Shown: positions 1-8,377 of the stretch, piece by piece | How the letters are laid out: the number at the start of each line of letters is the position of its first letter | Position numbering within the stretch: the stretch's first letter is position 1 | Assembly: GCA_021161545.1 (NCBI GenBank) | Contig: JAGHAJ010000152.1 | Span: 1-8,377, forward strand | DNA from: Synergistota bacterium | Lineage (GTDB): Bacteria > Synergistota > JAGHAJ01 | Direction of reading: 5' to 3' | DNA: 8,377 bases | The notes under the pieces: model-generated | Database searches by the model: none | Told to the model about the DNA's origin: nothing | Seen by the model: the letters and a program-made list of their open reading frames with translations, nothing else | Position numbers and translations under genes: made by a program

Positions 1-122
1 ACATTTAGATTATACACTTTAAGCAGCCCGAAGAGAAGGTGGGCCGCTTGATATCTTTTCAGAGGTATCAACTTAACGGGTATTAAATCCAGAGAACCAC
101 TTTTAGAAGATATGATACCCAT
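1..122 (-). CDS. Possible 5' part of a divergent gene, function unknown (partial)
   Basis: The - strand is open from position 158 to the window edge, and an ATG at 122-120 is preceded by a purine-rich AGGGAAGAGG stretch (134-125 on +) that could serve as a ribosome binding site. The 40 visible residues begin MGIISSKSGSLDLIPVKL and continue with an amphipathic segment around LKRYQAAHLLFGLLKV. All three + frames are closed by position 51, so the - strand is the best coding choice for this stretch. I do not recognise the family: there is no visible N-terminal helix-turn-helix of the GntR, IclR or LysR type. By position, head to head with the operon across a repeat-rich control region, it could be a regulator, but that rests on context alone. 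With only 40 codons it may also be chance. Confidence 0.3.
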   Translation of the reverse strand, partial: MGIISSKSGSLDLIPVKLIPLKRYQAAHLLFGLLKVYNLN

Positions 123-160
123 TGCCTCTTCCCTTTCTGCTCCTTCTAATTCTGGGGCCT

Positions 161-186
161 AGTAGATATGTCCATACCTATCTACT
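161..186. repeat. 8-bp inverted repeat, candidate operator
   Basis: AGTAGATA at 161-168 is mirrored exactly by TATCTACT at 179-186 with a 10-nt spacer. It is not GC-rich and has no T tract, so it is not a terminator. It lies between the possible divergent start at 122 and the operon promoter and directly abuts the direct repeat that begins at 186. A dimeric regulator site is a reasonable inference; I cannot assign it to a regulator family. Confidence 0.4.
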
Positions 187-220
187 GACAAGCTTTATAT
201 ACCTGTTGACAAGCTTTATA
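186..220. repeat. 14-bp direct repeat with 21-bp period, candidate regulator site
   Basis: TGACAAGCTTTATA occurs twice without mismatch, at 186-199 and 207-220. The copies are 21 bp apart, two turns of the helix, so proteins bound to each would lie on the same DNA face. The second copy overlaps the TTGACA element of the candidate operon promoter. On the - strand the first copy supplies TTGTCA, which could act as a -35 for the divergent gene, although the matching -10 (TATCTA, 168-163) is poor. The repeat is seen directly; regulatory use is inferred. Confidence 0.5.
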
Positions 221-235
221 GATGTATGATAAAAT
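206..235 (+). promoter_or_regulatory. Candidate sigma-70-type promoter of the operon
   Basis: A perfect TTGACA (206-211) is followed after 18 bp by TAAAAT (230-235), a five-of-six match to TATAAT. Transcription would start near 241-243, about 40 nt before the GTG start at 282. This placement puts the upstream ATG at 222 inside the promoter and supports the later start. The -35 overlaps the second copy of the direct repeat, so a bound regulator could block or recruit polymerase. Confidence 0.5.
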
Positions 236-281: not shown

Positions 282-1178
282 GTGCTAGAGAGAGTAGAAA
301 AGCTTATGGAAGGTGCAATTGATATTCAGGTTCATACAAACCCTGCGATACGGGAAAGGTTGTTGGACTCCTATGAAGCTGCAGTAGATGCTAAGTCTGC
401 TGGGATGAAGGGTATTGTATTAAAGGATCTTAATACCTTAAGTGCAAATGTTGCTTATTTGGTTAATAAGAGGGTAGAGGGTGTTGAAGTATGGGGAGGA
501 GTAGTTTTGGACTACTCTGTTGGGGGGATAAATCCTGCAGCAGTGGAAACTGCAGTGTCGTATGGTGCTAAAGTTGTTTGGATGCCATGTACAGATTCTG
601 CGAATACCATTGAGAAAACCTATGTTACAGGGGAGACGAAAAAAGCTGCTCCAATGATAAAGATAAAGGATCCAGCCAAGGGGCTGTCTATATTTGAAGG
701 AGGTATGGAAGGGAGTAAAATCTTACCAGAAGTTAGAGAAGTGATCTCTCTTGTGGCAAAGCACAACATAATATTGGAGACTGGGCACTTATCTCCTAGA
801 GAAATTATAGAGCTTACAAAAGAGGCTAGGAAAATGGGGGTTAATAAGATAGTTGTTACACATGTCAATAGTGGATTTATTGGTGCAACCATCCATGATA
901 AGGAGGAAATGATAAAGGCTGGAGCGTATTTGTGCTATACGTACGATTTATGTTTACCTACTACTTCCCGTCAGAATTCAGCAGATCTTGTGGAGGAAAT
1001 TAAGAAACTGGGTGTGGAGAATTGTATTCTTGCCACAAATATGGGGCAATTGTACACGATTAGACCTGTGGAAGGTTTAAAGCTTGCAATTACTGACTTC
1101 CTTAGGAGAGGTATGAGTGATGAGGAAATAGAGGTGCTGGTAAAACTAAATCCTAGTAAGCTCTTGGATCTTGTATAG
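282..1178 (+). CDS. DUF6282 family protein (amidohydrolase-like fold)
   Basis: This 298-residue protein resembles the DUF6282 family of TIM-barrel, metal-dependent-hydrolase-like proteins of unknown substrate. Supporting segments are GAIDIQVHTNP (11-21), AKSAGMKGIVLK (37-48), the GGVVLDYSVGGINPAAVE block, VVWMPC, ETGHLSPREI (His169), VTHVNSGF (His194), and MGQLYTIRPVEGL followed by an NPSKLLDL tail. Length fits the family. It is probably cytoplasmic: no signal peptide or membrane segment is visible. The start is GTG 282, chosen for its ribosome binding site; ATG 222 would add 20 residues and falls within the promoter. Oddly, positions where I expect metal ligands are changed: the usual HxH motif reads QVH (Gln16, His18), the KSH-type motif after the second strand reads KDLN, and the late Asp position is Asn253. 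As first gene of the operon it may process an intermediate of the same pathway, but the reaction is unknown. Family call is fairly sure, function is not. Confidence 0.8.
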   Translation: MLERVEKLMEGAIDIQVHTNPAIRERLLDSYEAAVDAKSAGMKGIVLKDLNTLSANVAYLVNKRVEGVEVWGGVVLDYSVGGINPAAVETAVSYGAKVVWMPCTDSANTIEKTYVTGETKKAAPMIKIKDPAKGLSIFEGGMEGSKILPEVREVISLVAKHNIILETGHLSPREIIELTKEARKMGVNKIVVTHVNSGFIGATIHDKEEMIKAGAYLCYTYDLCLPTTSRQNSADLVEEIKKLGVENCILATNMGQLYTIRPVEGLKLAITDFLRRGMSDEEIEVLVKLNPSKLLDLV

Positions 1179-1214
1179 TAATGTATAAGTGATTATTTAG
1201 GGAGGTAGGATGAT

Positions 1215-2732
1215 ATGGGGTTAATGGATAGTGTAGATGTTCTCGTAATAGGTGGAGGTGTTGCAGGTGCCTCTATCGTGCGTGAGCTTTCTCGGTACGA
1301 GCTTGAAGTTGCAATGGTAGAGAAAGAGGCAGATGTTTGTTTTGGGGTTACTAAAGCTACTCATGCATTAATACACTCGGGAATACCTGGTAAAGGTATT
1401 CCTTTGGAGAATAGGACTTTGCTACTTGGAAACCTTAAAATGGATCAGTTATGTAAGGATTTGGATGTGCCTTTTGAGAGGGTGGGAAAACTTTTAGTAG
1501 CGTTCAATAGCGAGGAATTAGAAATACTGAGAATGCATGAGTACAACTGCAGAGTGGGGGGTGTTCCGGGAGTTGAGCTAATTACAGATGTTAATAAGAT
1601 AAGGGAAATGGAACCAAATATTTCTCCTAAGGTGATAGCAGCTCTTTACACACCTACGACGGGTATAGTTAGTCCCTGGGAGCTGGTTTTTGGGCTTATA
1701 GAGAATGCGAAGAAAAATGGTGTGAGGCTTTATGTGAATGCTGAAGTGAAATCTATATTTGTGCAGCAGGATGGGAGCTTTATTGTTGGAACGGAAGTGG
1801 GAGATGTGAAGAGCAGGTATATTGTGAATGCAGCCGGTTTTGGCGCAGATAGTATAGCAAGGTTAATCGGTGATGATTCTTTCAAGGTGACTGCTGTAAG
1901 GGAACAAAGAATAATAATAGATAAAGTTTATAAAGGTTTGGTAAAACATTTGGTTCGGGCTTTAAATGGTTTAAAGACTACGGGAGATTTTGTAGCGCCC
2001 ACAGTATATGGGGATATAATGATTGGAGAAACCATAGAGCATCCGGATGATGTTTATGATGTTGCTACTACTAGAGATGGCTTAGAAGGAAGGGTAATAC
2101 CAAGGGCTAAAGATTTAGTTCCTTCTCTCCCTGTGAGAGGAACAATTAAGCCATTTGCAGGTAATATCCCTAGAGTTAATTTGAAGACGGAGGGGGGCTA
2201 CAAGCTTATAGGAGATTATCTTGTTAAGCCTTCGCTTGCTAGTGAAAAACTGATTAATGTGGTGCTTACTGGTTCTGGTGTTGGTGCAGCTCCTGCAATA
2301 GCTACATATGTTGTTGAGGAGATTTTACCTTCAGTGGGGTTGGAGTTGAAGCCAAAGGATAGATTTGATCCAAAAAGGGAAGGGATTCCAAGGTTTGCTG
2401 AACTGACAGATGAGGAGAGAGCAAAGCTTATAGAAAAAGACCCTAGATGGGGGCATGTGGTTTGTAGGTGTGAGATGGTAACAGAAGGTGAGATTGTGGA
2501 AGCAATTAGAAGGGGAGCAACTACCTATGATGGTGTGAAGTTTAGAACCCGTACGGGGATGGGTAGATGTCAAGGGGGGTTTGATAGGCCCCGAGTTTTA
2601 CGTATACTCTCCAGAGAACTAGGTATTCCGGTTGAGAAGATTACTCGAAAGGGAGACGGATCATATGAGGTTCTTTACAGAGTAAAGGAATTACTTTTGG
2701 ATGCAAGAAGGGGAAGTGATAGTAATGTCTAG
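1215..2732 (+). CDS. GlpA-like FAD-dependent oxidoreductase with C-terminal BFD-type domain
   Basis: This 505-residue protein belongs to the DAO/GlpA group, anaerobic glycerol-3-phosphate or 2-hydroxyacid dehydrogenases that reduce FAD. The N terminus has a dinucleotide-binding fold, GGGVAGAS (13-20), with an acidic residue ending the second strand (Glu36). Family-typical stretches include LCKDLDVPFERVGKLLVAF, PTTGIVSPWEL and the late FAD-contact segment VLTGSGVGAAPA. The C-terminal domain resembles the BFD-like [2Fe-2S] domain of GlpA: Cys417-x-Cys419, then Cys452 in GMGRCQGGF. The fourth ligand, normally Cys five residues later, is Asp457. The loop after the FAD motif, where relatives read close to HAGYDAKPGT, here reads HSGIPGKGIPL (from His54), so the substrate may not be glycerol-3-phosphate. 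A GGGAGGT site (1200-1206) about 8 nt ahead selects ATG 1215 over ATG 1224. It overlaps the GlpB-like gene by 8 bp, which points to a joint complex. No glpK or glpF is visible, so I give no gene symbol. Confidence 0.85.
   Translation: MGLMDSVDVLVIGGGVAGASIVRELSRYELEVAMVEKEADVCFGVTKATHALIHSGIPGKGIPLENRTLLLGNLKMDQLCKDLDVPFERVGKLLVAFNSEELEILRMHEYNCRVGGVPGVELITDVNKIREMEPNISPKVIAALYTPTTGIVSPWELVFGLIENAKKNGVRLYVNAEVKSIFVQQDGSFIVGTEVGDVKSRYIVNAAGFGADSIARLIGDDSFKVTAVREQRIIIDKVYKGLVKHLVRALNGLKTTGDFVAPTVYGDIMIGETIEHPDDVYDVATTRDGLEGRVIPRAKDLVPSLPVRGTIKPFAGNIPRVNLKTEGGYKLIGDYLVKPSLASEKLINVVLTGSGVGAAPAIATYVVEEILPSVGLELKPKDRFDPKREGIPRFAELTDEERAKLIEKDPRWGHVVCRCEMVTEGEIVEAIRRGATTYDGVKFRTRTGMGRCQGGFDRPRVLRILSRELGIPVEKITRKGDGSYEVLYRVKELLLDARRGSDSNV
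1380..1402. repeat. 8-bp inverted repeat inside the GlpA-like gene
   Basis: GGAATACC (1380-1387) and GGTATTCC (1395-1402) are perfect complements around a 7-nt loop. They encode the near-repeat GIP-GK-GIP in the atypical loop after the FAD-binding motif. It is seen directly; it has no obvious regulatory role and may reflect how this loop arose. Confidence 0.4.
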
Positions 2733-3993
2733 AGTATTAACGAAGAGTGTTGATGTAGTGGTGTTGGGTGGTGGACCTGCGGGGTTGGGGGCAGCTATTA
2801 GAGCAAAAGAGGTAGGAAGCAGAAGTGTTTTATTAGTGGAACGGGCAGAAGAGTTGGGGGGTGTTCTTCCTCAATGTATCCATAATGGTTTTGGGTTGCA
2901 TTATTTTAAGGAGGAACTTACAGGTCCAGAATATGCATGGAGATTGATAAAGAAGCTTGATAAACTAGGTGTAGAGGTTTTGACGCATACAATGGCTATA
3001 GATATAAATGCTGATAAGGTAGTTACGGTAGTTAATAGAGATGGGGTAATTAAGATCAAAGCGAGGTCTGTCATTCTTGCAATGGGATGTAGGGAAAGGG
3101 CTCGAGGAGCTATAAGGATTCCAGGTGATAGGCCTGCGGGAGTTCTTACTGCAGGTACTGTGCAAAGGTTGATCAATATTGAGGGATATCTACCGGGGGA
3201 GCGCGTGGTGGTTGTAGGATCAGGGGATATAGGGATGATAATGGCAAGAAGGCTTGTTCTTGAAGGAGCAGAGGTTGCAGCAGTAGTGGAAATACTTCCC
3301 TTTATAGGGGGGTTAATAAGAAATGAAGTGCAGTGTTTGCGAGATTTTGATATTCCTACTTATACTAGTCATTCTACAATATTCATACATGGCAGAAACA
3401 GAGTGAAGGGCGTTACCATTACAGAAGTTGATAGGAAGATGAATCCAATTCCTGGAACAGAAAAGTATATAGAATGTGATACAGTTGTACTCTCAGTCGG
3501 TTTGATTCCGGAAAATGAGCTCTCTAGGCAAGCAGGTGTTGAAATAGATCCCTCTACTGGTGGGCCTGTAGTAGACGAGGTGTTTCAGACTAACATTCCT
3601 GGCATATTTGCTGGAGGGAATGTAGTGCATGTACATGATCTTGCAGATTATGTAACAGAATCTGCTGAAATAGCAGCAGAGAACGCTGTTAAGTTTGCTC
3701 AAGGACAGCAGGTTGTAGATGATACTACACGCGTTTTTGTAGAAGCTGGTGAGAATATAAGATATGTTATCCCTAGATATGTTAGTAAGAGCAGGCCAGC
3801 GAGTTTTTATATGAGAGTTTCTTGGCCCTTAGAAAGGGCAGTAATAAAGATAGGTGATATAGTGAAGAGGAGATTTCCTTTTGTTAGGCCAAGTGAGCAA
3901 GTTAGGATAGACGTGCCGGTGGAGAAGATGAAGAAGATAGAGGGAGAAAGATTAGTAATTAGTTGTGAAGGTACGGAGGTGATTCCTCGATGA
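2725..3993 (+). CDS. GlpB-like NAD(P)/FAD-dependent oxidoreductase
   Basis: This 422-residue flavoprotein has the two-dinucleotide-fold layout of thioredoxin-reductase-like oxidoreductases. The FAD motif GGGPAG (15-20) is followed by CIHNGFGLHYF (Cys51) and ELTGPEYA, both characteristic of the GlpB-like partner of GlpA-type dehydrogenases. A MGCRER motif (Cys122), the NAD-binding GSGDIG (165-170), LSVGLIPENELS and the second FAD segment GIFAGGNVVHVHDLADYV follow in the expected order. It probably takes electrons from the GlpA-like subunit and passes them to NAD or another carrier; the direction is inferred. The start is ATG 2725, preceded by AGAAGGGG (2706-2713); ATG 2701 is in frame but has no close ribosome binding site and would overlap the previous gene by 32 bp. 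The gene overlaps the GlpA-like gene by 8 bp and the DUF1667 gene by 4 bp (ATGA). No signal peptide or membrane segment is visible. Confidence 0.85.
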   Translation: MSRVLTKSVDVVVLGGGPAGLGAAIRAKEVGSRSVLLVERAEELGGVLPQCIHNGFGLHYFKEELTGPEYAWRLIKKLDKLGVEVLTHTMAIDINADKVVTVVNRDGVIKIKARSVILAMGCRERARGAIRIPGDRPAGVLTAGTVQRLINIEGYLPGERVVVVGSGDIGMIMARRLVLEGAEVAAVVEILPFIGGLIRNEVQCLRDFDIPTYTSHSTIFIHGRNRVKGVTITEVDRKMNPIPGTEKYIECDTVVLSVGLIPENELSRQAGVEIDPSTGGPVVDEVFQTNIPGIFAGGNVVHVHDLADYVTESAEIAAENAVKFAQGQQVVDDTTRVFVEAGENIRYVIPRYVSKSRPASFYMRVSWPLERAVIKIGDIVKRRFPFVRPSEQVRIDVPVEKMKKIEGERLVISCEGTEVIPR

Positions 3994-4358
3994 AGAAAGA
4001 AATAATATGTTTACAATGTCCCTTGGCATGTAGAATGACAGTTGAACTTACTGAGAGCGGTGAGATTCTTAGCGTATCAGGTAATTCCTGTCCGAGAGGA
4101 GAAGAATATGCCGAACAGGAAATAAAACAACCTTTGCGGATACTTACTACTACTGTAAGGGTGCTAAGTAAAGATATTGAGCATCCTCGCTTACCTGTGC
4201 GGACCCAAGGGCTGATTCCCAAGGTGTTATTGAAGAAGTGTATGAAAACGCTTGCTTCTGTGGAAGTACGTCCTCCTGTTCGAGTGGGTGATGTAGTACT
4301 GGAAAACATATTGAGCACAGGTGTAGATGTTATATCTACCGCAGAAGTTTTGGAGTGA
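3990..4358 (+). CDS. DUF1667 domain protein, small iron-sulfur partner of the GlpA/GlpB-like pair
   Basis: This 122-residue protein matches DUF1667, whose genes commonly follow glpA/glpB-like genes in anaerobes. Near the N terminus four cysteines are arranged as C7-x2-C10-x3-C14 and C34 in NSCPRGEEYA, resembling the [4Fe-4S] motif at the start of molybdopterin oxidoreductases. A cluster is therefore plausible, though not proven for the family. Further conserved features are the basic stretch ending in the LPVRT segment and the PKVLLKKCMKTL region. The likely role is electron transfer in, or assembly of, the oxidoreductase complex, in place of the membrane-linked GlpC subunit, which is absent here. 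It starts at ATG 3990 with a GGAGGT site (3975-3980) and overlaps the previous stop by 4 bp. Family call is sure; the role is inference from neighbours. Confidence 0.85.
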   Translation: MKKEIICLQCPLACRMTVELTESGEILSVSGNSCPRGEEYAEQEIKQPLRILTTTVRVLSKDIEHPRLPVRTQGLIPKVLLKKCMKTLASVEVRPPVRVGDVVLENILSTGVDVISTAEVLE

Positions 4359-4370
4359 GGTATTCTATCG

Positions 4371-5750
4371 ATGGATATGACAAGTGATATAGTTTCTAAT
4401 ATTGTTAGAACTGGATATGGTGACATTCCTGCGAGAGTTATTGAAATAACTAAGAAGTTTATTATGGATACTATTGGTGTGGGATTGGCTGGGATAAAAG
4501 CGCCTGGATGTAGAGAGATGCTTCAGCTCTTTAAGTATATAGGTGGTGTTAGAGAATCCACGGTAATGGGATATGGATATAAGCTTCCGTCTTTGTCTGC
4601 AGCTTTTCTCAATAGTATGTTTTCCCATGCATTGGATTACGATGATACATTGGACGATTCGGCGATGCACAGCTATGCAAGTGTGTTGCCTGCTGCTCTA
4701 GCATTGGCTGAGGTTAAGGGTAATGTTAGTGGAAGAGAGCTGATTGAAGCTGTTGTTTTAGGTGTTGACTTGAGTGTGCGGCTTGGTTGCGCAATTAAAA
4801 CACCTTTAAGTTGGATTAGAACTGCGACTTGTGGATCGTTTGGGGCAGCTGCAGCTGCTAGTAAAATTATGGGTCTTAGTGAGACTAAGACCCATAATGC
4901 ATTAGGTATAGTGTACAGTCAAACTTCTGGTAATGCACAGTGCTTAATTGATGGTGGTTTGACTAAGAGAATGCAACCGGCTTTCTCTGCAAGGGCTGGT
5001 GTCTTGTCGGCCTTAATGGCCGATCGTGGCATTTCGGGTGCGAAAGACGTCTTTGAGGGAAAGTATGGATTTTTTTACTTGTATGAGAGGGGGTTTTACG
5101 ATAGGGAGGTTTGTTTAGAGGATTTAGGAAAGAAGTTTGGTAGTGAATTGCTTAGCATAAAGCCTTACCCCTCTTGTAGGATGACACACGCAGCTATTGA
5201 TGCAGCCCTCAAGTTGAGAAGTAGTAATGACTTTAGTGTTGATGAGATTACTAAAGTGGAAGCGTATGTATCCAAAATGGTGAAAAGCATGGTAGGTAGG
5301 GTTTTCTCTGTTAGAGAAAACCCCCAAGTGGATGCACAATTTAGTATTCCTTATACAGTAGCGGTTTCTCTTGAGAAAGGTAAGATAGATTTGTATGACT
5401 TTGAGGAGGATGTGGTTAGAAAGAGAAGAGACCATTCTCTTATTAAGAGGGTAATTGTCCTTGAAAATGATAGTTTTGATGAAAGGGATATAAAAAGAGC
5501 TGTTGTTAGGGTTCATCTCAAGAATGGAGCTGTTTTTTCTGAGGAAACTAGAGTACCGAAAGGACATCCCGATAATCCGTTGGATTGGGATGAATGCATA
5601 GGGAAGTTTAGGAACTGTGTGCACTATGGAGGGTGTGAAACTCGGTCAATATGGATAGAGGAGCTGATAGATACTCTTGTACGTTTAGAGCAAATCAGAG
5701 ATGTTTCACAACTTACCAGATTGATTAGTTGTAGCGTAAGAGATGATTAA
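4371..5750 (+). CDS. MmgE/PrpD family protein (dehydratase/isomerase/decarboxylase type)
   Basis: This 459-residue protein belongs to the MmgE/PrpD superfamily, which includes 2-methylcitrate dehydratase, cis-aconitate decarboxylase and iminodisuccinate epimerase. Length matches the family. Diagnostic segments are the N-terminal helix FIMDTIGVGLAG, GYGYKLPSLSAAFLNSMFSH leading into ALDYDDT, the following His in MHSYASVLPAALALAE, the GSFGAAAAASK helix, QPAFSARAGVLSALMA, and the KPYPSCRMTHAAIDAAL block of the second domain. The protein is expected to be a soluble cytoplasmic dimer acting on a small carboxylic acid, without a redox cofactor. Which reaction applies cannot be told: prpB and prpC, the partners of a methylcitrate cycle, are not in the window. 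The start is ATG 4371, 12 nt after the DUF1667 gene; a GGAGTGAGG site overlaps the stop codon of that gene. ATG 4377 is an alternative. The gene holds two striking perfect palindromes (4866-4898 and 5299-5323). Confidence 0.88.
   Translation: MDMTSDIVSNIVRTGYGDIPARVIEITKKFIMDTIGVGLAGIKAPGCREMLQLFKYIGGVRESTVMGYGYKLPSLSAAFLNSMFSHALDYDDTLDDSAMHSYASVLPAALALAEVKGNVSGRELIEAVVLGVDLSVRLGCAIKTPLSWIRTATCGSFGAAAAASKIMGLSETKTHNALGIVYSQTSGNAQCLIDGGLTKRMQPAFSARAGVLSALMADRGISGAKDVFEGKYGFFYLYERGFYDREVCLEDLGKKFGSELLSIKPYPSCRMTHAAIDAALKLRSSNDFSVDEITKVEAYVSKMVKSMVGRVFSVRENPQVDAQFSIPYTVAVSLEKGKIDLYDFEEDVVRKRRDHSLIKRVIVLENDSFDERDIKRAVVRVHLKNGAVFSEETRVPKGHPDNPLDWDECIGKFRNCVHYGGCETRSIWIEELIDTLVRLEQIRDVSQLTRLISCSVRDD
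4866..4898. repeat. 15-bp perfect palindrome with 3-nt loop inside the MmgE/PrpD gene
   Basis: ATTATGGGTCTTAGT (4866-4880) and ACTAAGACCCATAAT (4884-4898) are exact reverse complements around GAG. The RNA would form a 15-bp stem with a minimal loop. It encodes KIMGLSETKTHNA, a segment that still fits the family, so it is not an inserted element. On the + strand no T tract follows. On the - strand the stem is followed only by TTTAC, a poor terminator. Confidence 0.85.
5299..5323. repeat. 11-bp perfect palindrome with 3-nt loop inside the MmgE/PrpD gene
   Basis: GGGTTTTCTCT (5299-5309) and AGAGAAAACCC (5313-5323) are exact reverse complements around GTT. They encode part of GRVFSVRENP. No T tract follows on either strand, so it is not an intrinsic terminator. 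Confidence 0.75.
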
Positions 5751-5772
5751 GAGGGAGGTGGTTATTATGTGA
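5751..5772 (+). promoter_or_regulatory. Strong ribosome binding site followed by a start-stop pair (ATG TGA)
   Basis: GAGGGAGGTGG (5751-5761) sits directly after the MmgE/PrpD stop and is ideally placed for ATG 5767, but the next codon is TGA. A GTG at 5769 overlaps this ATG and is in frame with the binding protein, adding 22 residues (VRVNGLWGVDVYITLF and so on) before its signal peptide. It may be a translational control element, an alternative start, or the decayed copy of the real start site 68 bp downstream. Confidence 0.35.
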
Positions 5773-5820
5773 GAGTTAATGGGTTGTGGGGGGTTGACGT
5801 CTATATTACTTTATTTGAAG

Positions 5821-5826
5821 AGGAGG
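5821..5826 (+). promoter_or_regulatory. Ribosome binding site deciding the ATG start at 5835
   Basis: AGGAGG lies 8 nt before ATG 5835. The protein from this start opens directly with a well-formed signal peptide, so it is preferred over GTG 5769. Confidence 0.75.
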
Positions 5827-5834
5827 GTGATATT

Positions 5835-6818
5835 ATGAGTTTAAAGGGGAAAAGGTGGGTGTGGGTTGTTGTTTTAGTTGTTACTCTTCTGCTACAGGTT
5901 TCTGTGGTAAATGCTAAGGTTTTTCTTTCCTTAGGTACAGGGAGCTCTGCAGGAACATACTATTATTTAGGTGCAGGTTTTGCTGCGATAGTCAATAAGT
6001 ATGTGCCTAATATCAGGATAACTGCTCAATCCACGGCAGCGGCCTTTGAGAATGCGAGGCTTGTGGCAACTAAGAAGCTAGATTTAGGGTTCACTTGTAT
6101 GGGTACACTTCGCACTTTGAAGAAGGAAGAAGGTCTTGATTTGAGTGGTATTAGGCTTATAGCTGTTGGCCACAGAAGTGACGTTCATTGGATGACTATG
6201 GGAGATTCTGGTATTAAGCGGATAGAAGATATTAGGGGCAAGAGGGTAGGTGTTGGTCCGCAGGGAAGTGCAACGCTAAGACTTTTTAGTATTAAGTGTT
6301 TGAAAGCTGGGTGGAATCTCACATTGAAGGACTTCCAGCCAAGGTATTTTTCCTTTAAAGAGATAGTGAATGGTCTTGTAAATAGAACAGTAGATGCTGG
6401 TATTATAGCTGCAGGAGCTCCAGTTTCCTCTATTTTAAACTTGTGCACAATGCATAAGGTTAGATTTTTGGAGACACCGCCCCCCATAGCGGAAAAGATG
6501 CATAAGATACTGGGATACCCTATGCCTTTTATTATACCTGCTGGTACTTATCCAGGGCAGAGCAAGGATGTTCATACCTATACTATTAGACAGATGTTAA
6601 TATGTCGTGCAGATTTACCGGCAGAGACTGTTTACAGTATTATGAAAGCCATATATACCCATCCTAAAGAGAAAAATGCGATACATCCACAGGCTAAGCT
6701 TTGGAATCTGAAAGGTTGCTTTAAGGGTAGTAACTCTGTACCGGTTAAGTTTCATCCCGGTGCAATTAAGTTTTATAAGGAGATGGGGATCTGGAAGTAT
6801 AAGAATCAGTGGCAATAG
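5835..6818 (+). CDS. TAXI family TRAP transporter solute-binding protein
   Basis: This 327-residue protein is the extracytoplasmic receptor of a TAXI-type TRAP transporter, a sodium- or proton-coupled importer of small organic acids and related compounds. The N terminus is a signal peptide: basic residues at 4-7 (KGKR), a hydrophobic run at about 8-24, and likely cleavage after VVNA (Ala27). No lipobox cysteine is visible, so it should be a free or loosely held receptor. The mature protein opens with LSLGTGSSAGTYYYLG, the hallmark of TAXI receptors, followed by ARLVATKKLDLGFT, IRGKRVGVGPQGSAT and DAGIIAAGAPVSSI. Length is normal. The ligand cannot be read from the sequence; the neighbouring hydroxyacid-type enzymes suggest a carboxylate. 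GTG 5769 would add a 22-residue N-terminal extension before the signal peptide and is less likely. A strong hairpin begins at its stop codon. Confidence 0.88.
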   Translation: MSLKGKRWVWVVVLVVTLLLQVSVVNAKVFLSLGTGSSAGTYYYLGAGFAAIVNKYVPNIRITAQSTAAAFENARLVATKKLDLGFTCMGTLRTLKKEEGLDLSGIRLIAVGHRSDVHWMTMGDSGIKRIEDIRGKRVGVGPQGSATLRLFSIKCLKAGWNLTLKDFQPRYFSFKEIVNGLVNRTVDAGIIAAGAPVSSILNLCTMHKVRFLETPPPIAEKMHKILGYPMPFIIPAGTYPGQSKDVHTYTIRQMLICRADLPAETVYSIMKAIYTHPKEKNAIHPQAKLWNLKGCFKGSNSVPVKFHPGAIKFYKEMGIWKYKNQWQ

Positions 6819-6850
6819 AGAAGTGCTCCGCTAAGCGGAGCACTTCTCTA
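6816..6850 (+). terminator. 16-bp perfect hairpin between binding protein and permease (terminator or processing stem)
   Basis: TAGAGAAGTGCTCCGC (6816-6831) and GCGGAGCACTTCTCTA (6835-6850) are exact complements around a TAA loop. The left arm includes the stop codon of the binding-protein gene. Downstream is ATTTACTTTTTG, T-rich but starting some nt after the stem, so termination is probably partial. Since the permease follows in the same direction, with its own ribosome binding site and no clear promoter, the hairpin likely lowers permease expression or stabilises the binding-protein mRNA. Confidence 0.75.
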
Positions 6851-6884
6851 ACTATTTACTTTTTGTAAAGACGGGGGGCTAAGT

Positions 6885-8377
6885 ATGTCAATTTTAGGTG
6901 AAAATGGTAGAGAGAAATTGGTATCTGTGATTGCTATTGGGATGTCTTTGTTTCATCTTGCTACAGGTTACTACCAGTTAGAGGCGATGAGTCAGAGAAT
7001 AATACATTTAATGTTTGCTTACACTTTGATCTACCTGACTTGCCCTAAATCGCGGGATTGTGGAAGGTTCTGTTGGATCCTGAGATTGAGTCTTGCACTC
7101 CTATATGTAATTGTATCTATGTACTTTCTCTTTACATGGGATAAACGGATGGGCCAGATAGGACTGAGTTTACCACTTTGTGATATAGTATTAGGTATTG
7201 CTATTTTAGCTTTGTCTCTCGAAGGTGCTAGGAGAATAATAGGTATTGTGCTCCCTGCAATAGCTGTGTTGGTTATAATTTATGCTAGGTTTGGAGAGAT
7301 TATGCCAGATCTGTTTGCGCATGCAAACTATCCAATCGATAGAATTGTATATAGTATGAGCTTGAAAACTGATGGTCTTTACGGGATGCTTACAGGTATA
7401 TCAGCCACTTTTATCTACCTATTAGTTTTGTTTGGAACTATGTATAAGGAGTCCGGTGCTGGAAAATTTTTTATGGATTTTGCCATGAGCTTGGCTGGAG
7501 GATTACGTGGAGGAGCAGGGAAAGTTGCTGTAGTGGCAAGTTCGCTGTTTGGTATGATCTCTGGTAGTGGGGTAGCTAATACAGCTGCTACAGGTAGTAT
7601 AACTATTCCTTTGATGGTGAGGGAGGGGTACCCTAGCTACTTTGCTGCTGCCGTAGTTGCAGCATCTGGTTCAGGAGGACTAATAATGCCGCCTATTATG
7701 GGAAGTGCAGTTTTTATTATTATGCAGATTTTAGGAATCCCTTATACAGAGATAATGCTAAGATCCTTCATAATAGCAGTACTGTTTTACTTAGCACTTT
7801 TCCTAACTGTTGATATAGAATCCGTGAAGTTAGGGATACGTGGTAGAAACAGATTAGAATTGCCTGATACTGTGCAAGTGATTAAGGAAGGGTGGAATTA
7901 CCTTATTCCTCCTTTACTTTTGATAGTTCTGTTGTTATTGCATTTTACTGTTACGAGAGCTGCTTTTTGGGGGTGTCTTTCTATTCCATTGGCTTCGGCT
8001 TTGAGGAAATCTACAAGGATGGGGTGGGAGAAACTACTTTCATCACTTAGAGAAGGTGCTCTTAGCGCTATATCTGTAATAGCTATACTCTCTACTGCGA
8101 GTATAGTAGTTGGAGTGGTGAATTTCACTGGACTGGGATTGATGGTTTCGTCTATATTGATTAACCTCTCTGGGGGTAACTTATTTTTACTGTTGGTTCT
8201 GACAATGATAGCCTCTATTATCTTGGGAATGGGGATCCCTCCTGTAGCGGCGTACATCGTTCTTGCAATACTTGTAGTTCCTGCACTAACGCAGATGGGG
8301 ATTTGGCCCTTTGCTGCTCACATGTTTGTGTTTTACTTTTCTGTCTTGGCAGAGATAAGTCCTCCGGTTGCACCCAA
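6885..8377 (+). CDS. TRAP transporter fused permease, 4TM/12TM type (partial, 3' end outside window)
   Basis: An open frame from ATG 6885, with a GGGGGG site (6873-6878) 6 nt ahead, runs to the window edge without a stop (497 residues visible). It is the membrane part of a TRAP transporter in which the small DctQ-like and large DctM-like subunits are fused. The N-terminal part holds four hydrophobic segments. The DctM-like part begins near LTGISATFIYLLVLFG and carries the family motifs SGSGVANTAATG (226-237), a GYPSYFAAAVVAASGSGG stretch, IMPPIMG, and in the second repeat ILGMGIPPVAAY (448-453 for GMGIPP) and EISPPVAP. Roughly the last quarter of a usual protein is missing. It pairs with the TAXI receptor just upstream to import a small organic solute. 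GMGIPPVAAY differs from the GMGLPTTAAY form I recall as common in this family. Confidence 0.88.
   Translation, partial: MSILGENGREKLVSVIAIGMSLFHLATGYYQLEAMSQRIIHLMFAYTLIYLTCPKSRDCGRFCWILRLSLALLYVIVSMYFLFTWDKRMGQIGLSLPLCDIVLGIAILALSLEGARRIIGIVLPAIAVLVIIYARFGEIMPDLFAHANYPIDRIVYSMSLKTDGLYGMLTGISATFIYLLVLFGTMYKESGAGKFFMDFAMSLAGGLRGGAGKVAVVASSLFGMISGSGVANTAATGSITIPLMVREGYPSYFAAAVVAASGSGGLIMPPIMGSAVFIIMQILGIPYTEIMLRSFIIAVLFYLALFLTVDIESVKLGIRGRNRLELPDTVQVIKEGWNYLIPPLLLIVLLLLHFTVTRAAFWGCLSIPLASALRKSTRMGWEKLLSSLREGALSAISVIAILSTASIVVGVVNFTGLGLMVSSILINLSGGNLFLLLVLTMIASIILGMGIPPVAAYIVLAILVVPALTQMGIWPFAAHMFVFYFSVLAEISPPVAP

Follow-up and report, generated by a model that had tools for sequence, protein, structure and literature searches.

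An organic-acid operon candidate pairing a rare sub-branch of the GlpTk-type dehydrogenase family with an MmgE/PrpD protein

The GlpTk-NOX-MOX glycerol-3-phosphate (G3P) dehydrogenase complex has been described for Thermococcus kodakarensis, and its family includes sequences from Thermotoga maritima and Clostridium perfringens (PMC11962113). The stretch of DNA analyzed here (the window) is an entire contig of 8,377 bases (G000:C274) from the draft genome of its host, an uncultured anaerobe (1.58 Mb, 82% complete), and it contains the three adjacent genes of that family, encoding DAO/BFD, Pyr_redox_2, and DUF1667 proteins; DUF1667 is equated with the "MOX" subunit of PMC11962113 on the basis of gene order and size. 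We assign the window triad to a rare sub-branch of this Thermococcus-type family. Its GlpA-like catalytic subunit (DAO plus Fer2_BFD, from Pfam and alignment; 1215..2732, +) and its GlpB-like Pyr_redox_2 flavoprotein, the NOX subunit (Pfam; 2701..3993, +, with the start probably at 2725 rather than 2701), are 45% and 52% identical, respectively, to the subunits of a GlpP-linked triad (L186), and the top NCBIfam scores for GlpA are those of G3P oxidase/GlpA families (184 against a cut-off of 460, and 126 against 553 for TIGR03377). The third member is a small cysteine-rich DUF1667 protein (Pfam; 3990..4358, +), a family to which the papers examined assign no new function. In the window GlpA only, the fourth Cys of the BFD [2Fe-2S] motif is Asp457 (GAT, 2583-2585), the residue being Cys in five sister proteins; electron transfer could be altered by this loss. 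Separately, three genomes from the phylum of genome G113 (L189, L190, and L191) carry GlpA and GlpB as one fused frame, about 890-920 codons long, an arrangement that recalls a fusion reported in protists.

The triad sits within an operon of seven co-directional, closely spaced genes, as the first-pass annotation had described. All are on the forward strand with intact frames, their spacing ranges from a 32-base overlap to a gap of 84 bases, and all seven families lie well past their Pfam cut-offs. None of GlpA, GlpB, and MmgE reaches an NCBIfam equivalog cut-off. Upstream of the triad lies a DUF6282 gene (282..1178, +), with an improved start at a GTG at 282 that has a strong Shine-Dalgarno sequence; downstream are genes for an MmgE/PrpD-family protein (4371..5750, +), a TAXI-type TRAP solute-binding protein (NMT1_3; 5835..6818, +, with an improved ATG start at 5835), and a fused TRAP permease (DctQM, Pfam DctM; 6885..8377, +), the last cut by the contig end at 8377. 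A stem-loop of 16 pairs between the TAXI and permease genes (6816..6850, +) is terminator- or attenuator-like and may set the relative expression of the two. As that annotation had also noted, no glpK, glpF, prpB, or prpC was found in the window, which stops at the contig end at 8377. A promoter-like site (TTGACA-18-TAAAAT with TG ahead of the -10; 206..235, +) is the best in the window at 11/12 matches, although it is a consensus match only, 18 such sites being found against 17.8 expected in shuffles. Outside the operon, positions 1..186 (no strand assigned) hold the end of a repeated element with at least nine copies in the host genome, each at a contig end (L070-L077 among them), at 90-96% identity and nearly all ending at base 186; several copies are followed within about 70 bases by a promoter of TTGACA type, in some cases along with a tRNA gene, as if the element might insert just upstream of promoters. 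Assembly contamination was rejected because the window resembles the host genome's other contigs in GC content (0.415) and tetranucleotide composition (correlation 0.91), and also because this left-end repeat is common to the window and other host contigs.

The gene-neighborhood check proposed in the first-pass annotation returned a conserved core. The block GlpA-GlpB-DUF1667-MmgE recurs with order and strand unchanged in two Bacillota genomes, G408 (L222) and G615 (L227), at identities to the window of 55-57% for GlpA, 61-64% for GlpB, 57-59% for DUF1667, and 58-60% for MmgE; within the window's own phylum, the best MmgE match has 34% identity. Because the core recurs across phyla, the set is beyond chance co-occurrence. 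The claim of a conserved but unassigned gene combination therefore holds for these four genes and not for all seven, the complete set being met in the window only among the genomes examined. Likewise, the reading of the seven genes as one set has to be loosened at the DUF6282 and TRAP positions; elsewhere the former is occupied by a TatD-like hydrolase and the latter by transporters of the MFS or GltS type. In G615 the order is TatD-like, GlpA, GlpB, DUF1667, MmgE, MBL-fold hydrolase, and GntR, with an MFS gene further along; G408 carries the same series with the MFS gene adjoining. The MBL-fold protein is closest to AHL lactonases and 4-pyridoxolactonase, under the cut-off. In two further genomes, G005 (L146) and G441 (L223), a TatD-like gene comes after the triad, and G005 also has a Glt_symporter gene. 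MmgE is present at three of the six sub-branch loci, and two of the other three loci are on short contigs.

Apart from the window, no GlpA adjoins an MmgE by position in 100 genomes of the phylum, and in plasmid records the best matches are 34% for MmgE and 40% for GlpA. A profile built from three altered-site GlpA sequences and run over 398 sampled Bacillota returned two outliers (705 and 665 bits), with a continuous group from 521 bits down. Beyond these two, altered-type GlpA occurs in one other genome of the 185 in the window's phylum (two of 185 in all), in one further genome of the order of G408, and in one of 17 genomes of Candidatus Aerophobetes (the phylum of G113), 7 of which hold some GlpA match. 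In trees, clade support is 1.0 for the core five GlpA sequences, 0.999 for GlpB, and 1.0 for MmgE; the Aerophobetes GlpA joins the core-five clade weakly, at 0.56. At an Aerophobetes locus (L176, 3398-14658), GlpA is present twice, once in altered-site form, together with GlpB, DUF1667, a DHDPS-family aldolase, a creatininase, a pair of URO-D-like proteins, a corrinoid protein, and a DctP TRAP importer. In the genome of L153, L154, and L155 there is a second GlpA-GlpB pair, whose motifs are ordinary, along with two more MmgE genes; on reading the sequences, one of these adjoins genes for a PrpF-like protein and a TctC-like binding protein. Three tandem MmgE/PrpD paralogues are found in several genomes of the window's phylum (e.g., G010, G015, G018, and G034).

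The MmgE/PrpD protein (both MmgE_PrpD_N and C domains; Pfam, alignment) falls in a distinct subfamily. Its solved relatives are, nearest first, IRG1-type proteins and iminodisuccinate (IDS) epimerase, then PrpD, and the nearest of them act on di- or tricarboxylates. The active-site set of B. subtilis IRG1 (D91, R100, H102, Y146, H151, K200, K266, and C271) is conserved in IDS epimerase (PMC7347537). In that numbering, the window protein keeps D91, H102, K200, K266, and C271, but has Ala for R100, Ile for H151, and nothing equivalent to Y146; the motif WIRTATCG is common to all three subfamily members, and the window also has KPYPSC. Identity as PrpD was rejected, with equivalog scores far under the cut-offs (TIGR02330, 46 bits against 458; PRK09425, 56 against 575), and the first-pass annotation's exclusion of methylcitrate use stands on these scores. 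Identity as cis-aconitate decarboxylase or IDS epimerase was also rejected, R100, Y146, and H151 not being kept. The same residues bear on the strongest rival reading, which follows the breakdown of N-carboxyalkyl amino acids: GlpA would dehydrogenate an amine or imino acid, and MmgE would epimerize a compound resembling iminodisuccinate. In favor of it, the DAO superfamily includes many amine oxidases, MmgE counts IDS epimerase among its closest solved relatives, and creatininase, DHDPS-family, and aminotransferase genes are neighbors at the more distant L176 locus. Against it, the window protein has neither His151 nor the residue that serves IDS epimerase as its second catalytic base (Tyr145/146), and GlpA matches families of alcohol-oxidizing enzymes best. 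We consider this reading unlikely.

The DUF6282 protein (Pfam PF19799, 205 bits, E 9e-61; alignment and model) has a modeled amidohydrolase-superfamily TIM barrel (pLDDT 93.6) that matches amidohydrolases, TatD among them, at Z 19-20 over about 240 residues. Its metal site is degenerate: of the set DxHxH, KxH, E, D..GQ, the window protein has H16Q, H50L, E218C, and D253N, a combination seen in 0 of 34 relatives, all 34 of which retain E218 and D253. The first-pass description of an amidohydrolase-like protein is thus borne out by the fold but not by the metal-site residues, and the protein may not necessarily be an active hydrolase. A literature search for DUF6282 returned no paper. As a cluster anchor the family was rejected, since 60 loci in other genomes have varied neighbors and no quartet. 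Within the phylum, three other genomes (L039, L045, and L067) have it next to a TAXI or DctQM gene, and in one (L042) it stands divergently beside an ordinary-motif triad, and because of these neighborhoods it is tied to both triad and transporter by other routes. These contexts weigh on a second rival, that the functional unit is the four-gene core only, with the DUF6282 and TRAP genes unrelated or decaying passengers. Such decay would suit a DUF6282 protein without four near-invariant residues, a BFD domain without one Cys, and sister loci that have no DUF6282, TAXI, or DctQM relatives; yet every frame in the window is intact, the gene gaps are tiny, DUF6282 is found beside transporter genes in those three genomes, and in the window it takes the place of the TatD-like gene, whose superfamily fold it shares. 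We regard the passenger reading as improbable.

The argument that the triad does not act on G3P concerns the GlpA substrate site, and it rests on alignment because the single-sequence GlpA model is poor (pLDDT 33). All six sub-branch members keep the catalytic His, which is preceded by T/S-H; they have R/K-x-x-R/K where others have RGEY or KGEE and FxG-x-I/V where others have FAGxR, they have lost the Lys of KG and the SP of ESPG, and their RGEY, SPG, and NS motifs are replaced in 6/6. Ordinary motifs are kept, with small variations, in all of the about 52 other distinct homologues compared (in this tally, L138 is a second copy of the window protein and L171_2 a second copy of the Aerophobetes protein), and even the most irregular of them, L171_1 and L173_1, retain the FxGxR-type Arg. 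The lost Lys and Arg align with K258 and R320 of Mycoplasma GlpO (the numbering assumes a tag offset), which we take to be phosphate ligands. From this alignment, the window triad is predicted to be without the phosphate-binding site of G3P dehydrogenases. Gene context agrees: an FGGY kinase, GlpP, or DhaK gene lies within 1.5 kb of 25/28 ordinary triads and 0/6 sub-branch triads (for independent loci the probability of this would be about 6e-5, but these are related, so a guide only), and no glycerol genes were found in 5.5-19.9 kb around five of the six sub-branch loci. The motif switch separates the putative non-glycerol members of the family by sequence alone. That the triad is an ordinary GlpTk-family G3P dehydrogenase in an operon mixed by happenstance is very improbable, for all that its best NCBIfam scores and its 45% identity to the GlpP-linked triad point that way, given scores far under the cut-offs, the lost phosphate ligands and replaced motifs, and no glycerol genes near any of the six loci. 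The first-pass view that glycerol use does not explain the set is upheld, and neither glycerol nor methylcitrate use of the ordinary kind is likely.

What the substrate might be is suggested by transport. Both window TRAP proteins score above their NCBIfam cut-offs (TRAP_TAXI, 211 bits; TRAP_fused, 505 bits, with the permease incomplete at its C-terminus). The TAXI-TRAP glutamate importer VcGluP offers a reference, Gln93 having mattered most at its glutamate site (PMC11574862). The window protein keeps the glutamate-site Tyr (Tyr45 position) but has Cys at the position of Gln93, and a glutamate ligand is therefore unlikely. The organic-anion-type carriers by the sub-branch loci differ, being TAXI-TRAP, Glt_symporter, and a metabolite/H+ MFS protein whose nearest relatives, below the cut-off, are shikimate and tricarballylate carriers. 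It is mainly because these other members have other organic-anion carriers nearby that we infer a carboxylate. Within GlpA, new H50, H245, and R248 are conserved in the sub-branch, with a basic residue at 232; the gained H50, R248, and basic 232 would fit a carboxylate substrate, but prove nothing.

Taken as a whole, the operon probably serves to take up a small organic acid and oxidize it anaerobically. Four observations underlie this reading: the combination of genes, its conservation across phyla, the replacement of the substrate site, and the absence of glycerol genes. The TAXI-TRAP system would import the acid; MmgE/PrpD would shift a proton or water beside the carboxylate, as an isomerase, hydratase/dehydratase, or epimerase; and the altered triad would use FAD to dehydrogenate a secondary alcohol or, with lower likelihood, an amine, passing electrons through the Fe-S centers and the GlpB flavin to NAD+. 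The 2-hydroxy acid put forward in the first-pass annotation stays a hypothetical substrate of this oxidation. Of these elements we infer the carboxylate ligand, how the steps are ordered and which way they run, and the NAD+ acceptor. The amidohydrolase-fold protein might open or close a ring in its TatD-like form in relatives, the DUF6282 version here being perhaps re-tuned or inactive. The triad could instead serve a substrate unrelated to MmgE. More tentatively, and at somewhat less than even confidence, the locus may represent an undescribed anaerobic catabolic pathway in at least two phyla, combining a GlpTk-type complex recruited to a carboxylate, a new functional class of MmgE/PrpD, and a DUF6282 protein of retained amidohydrolase fold that works without the usual metal center. 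No function has been assigned to DUF1667, DUF6282, or most MmgE/PrpD proteins, and annotation transfer is likely to label homologues of the triad as G3P dehydrogenases; the four-gene block offers a small, testable system toward a new organic-acid pathway in anaerobes.

The closest described systems are each matched in part. The window triad is alike in its three subunits to GlpTk-NOX-MOX, keeping the catalytic His, the FAD fold, and the DUF1667 cysteines, but its phosphate-binding residues and three neighboring motifs are replaced and its partner is MmgE/PrpD, not glycerol genes. With E. coli GlpABC it shares a DAO plus BFD catalytic subunit and a partner flavoprotein, and it differs in having DUF1667 in place of GlpC and in its low TIGR03377 score. 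The window MmgE has both domains and five active-site residues of the 2-methylcitrate dehydratase/IRG1/IDS epimerase group, whereas it and its close relatives form a separate clade. The DUF6282 protein matches the TIM barrel of the amidohydrolase superfamily (dihydroorotase, PTE-like lactonases, and TatD) over its full length, but departs from both that superfamily and its own family at H16, H50, E218, and D253. Finally, the TAXI protein shares its binding-protein family and the Tyr45 position with VcGluP (PMC11574862), and differs from it in the Gln93-to-Cys replacement.
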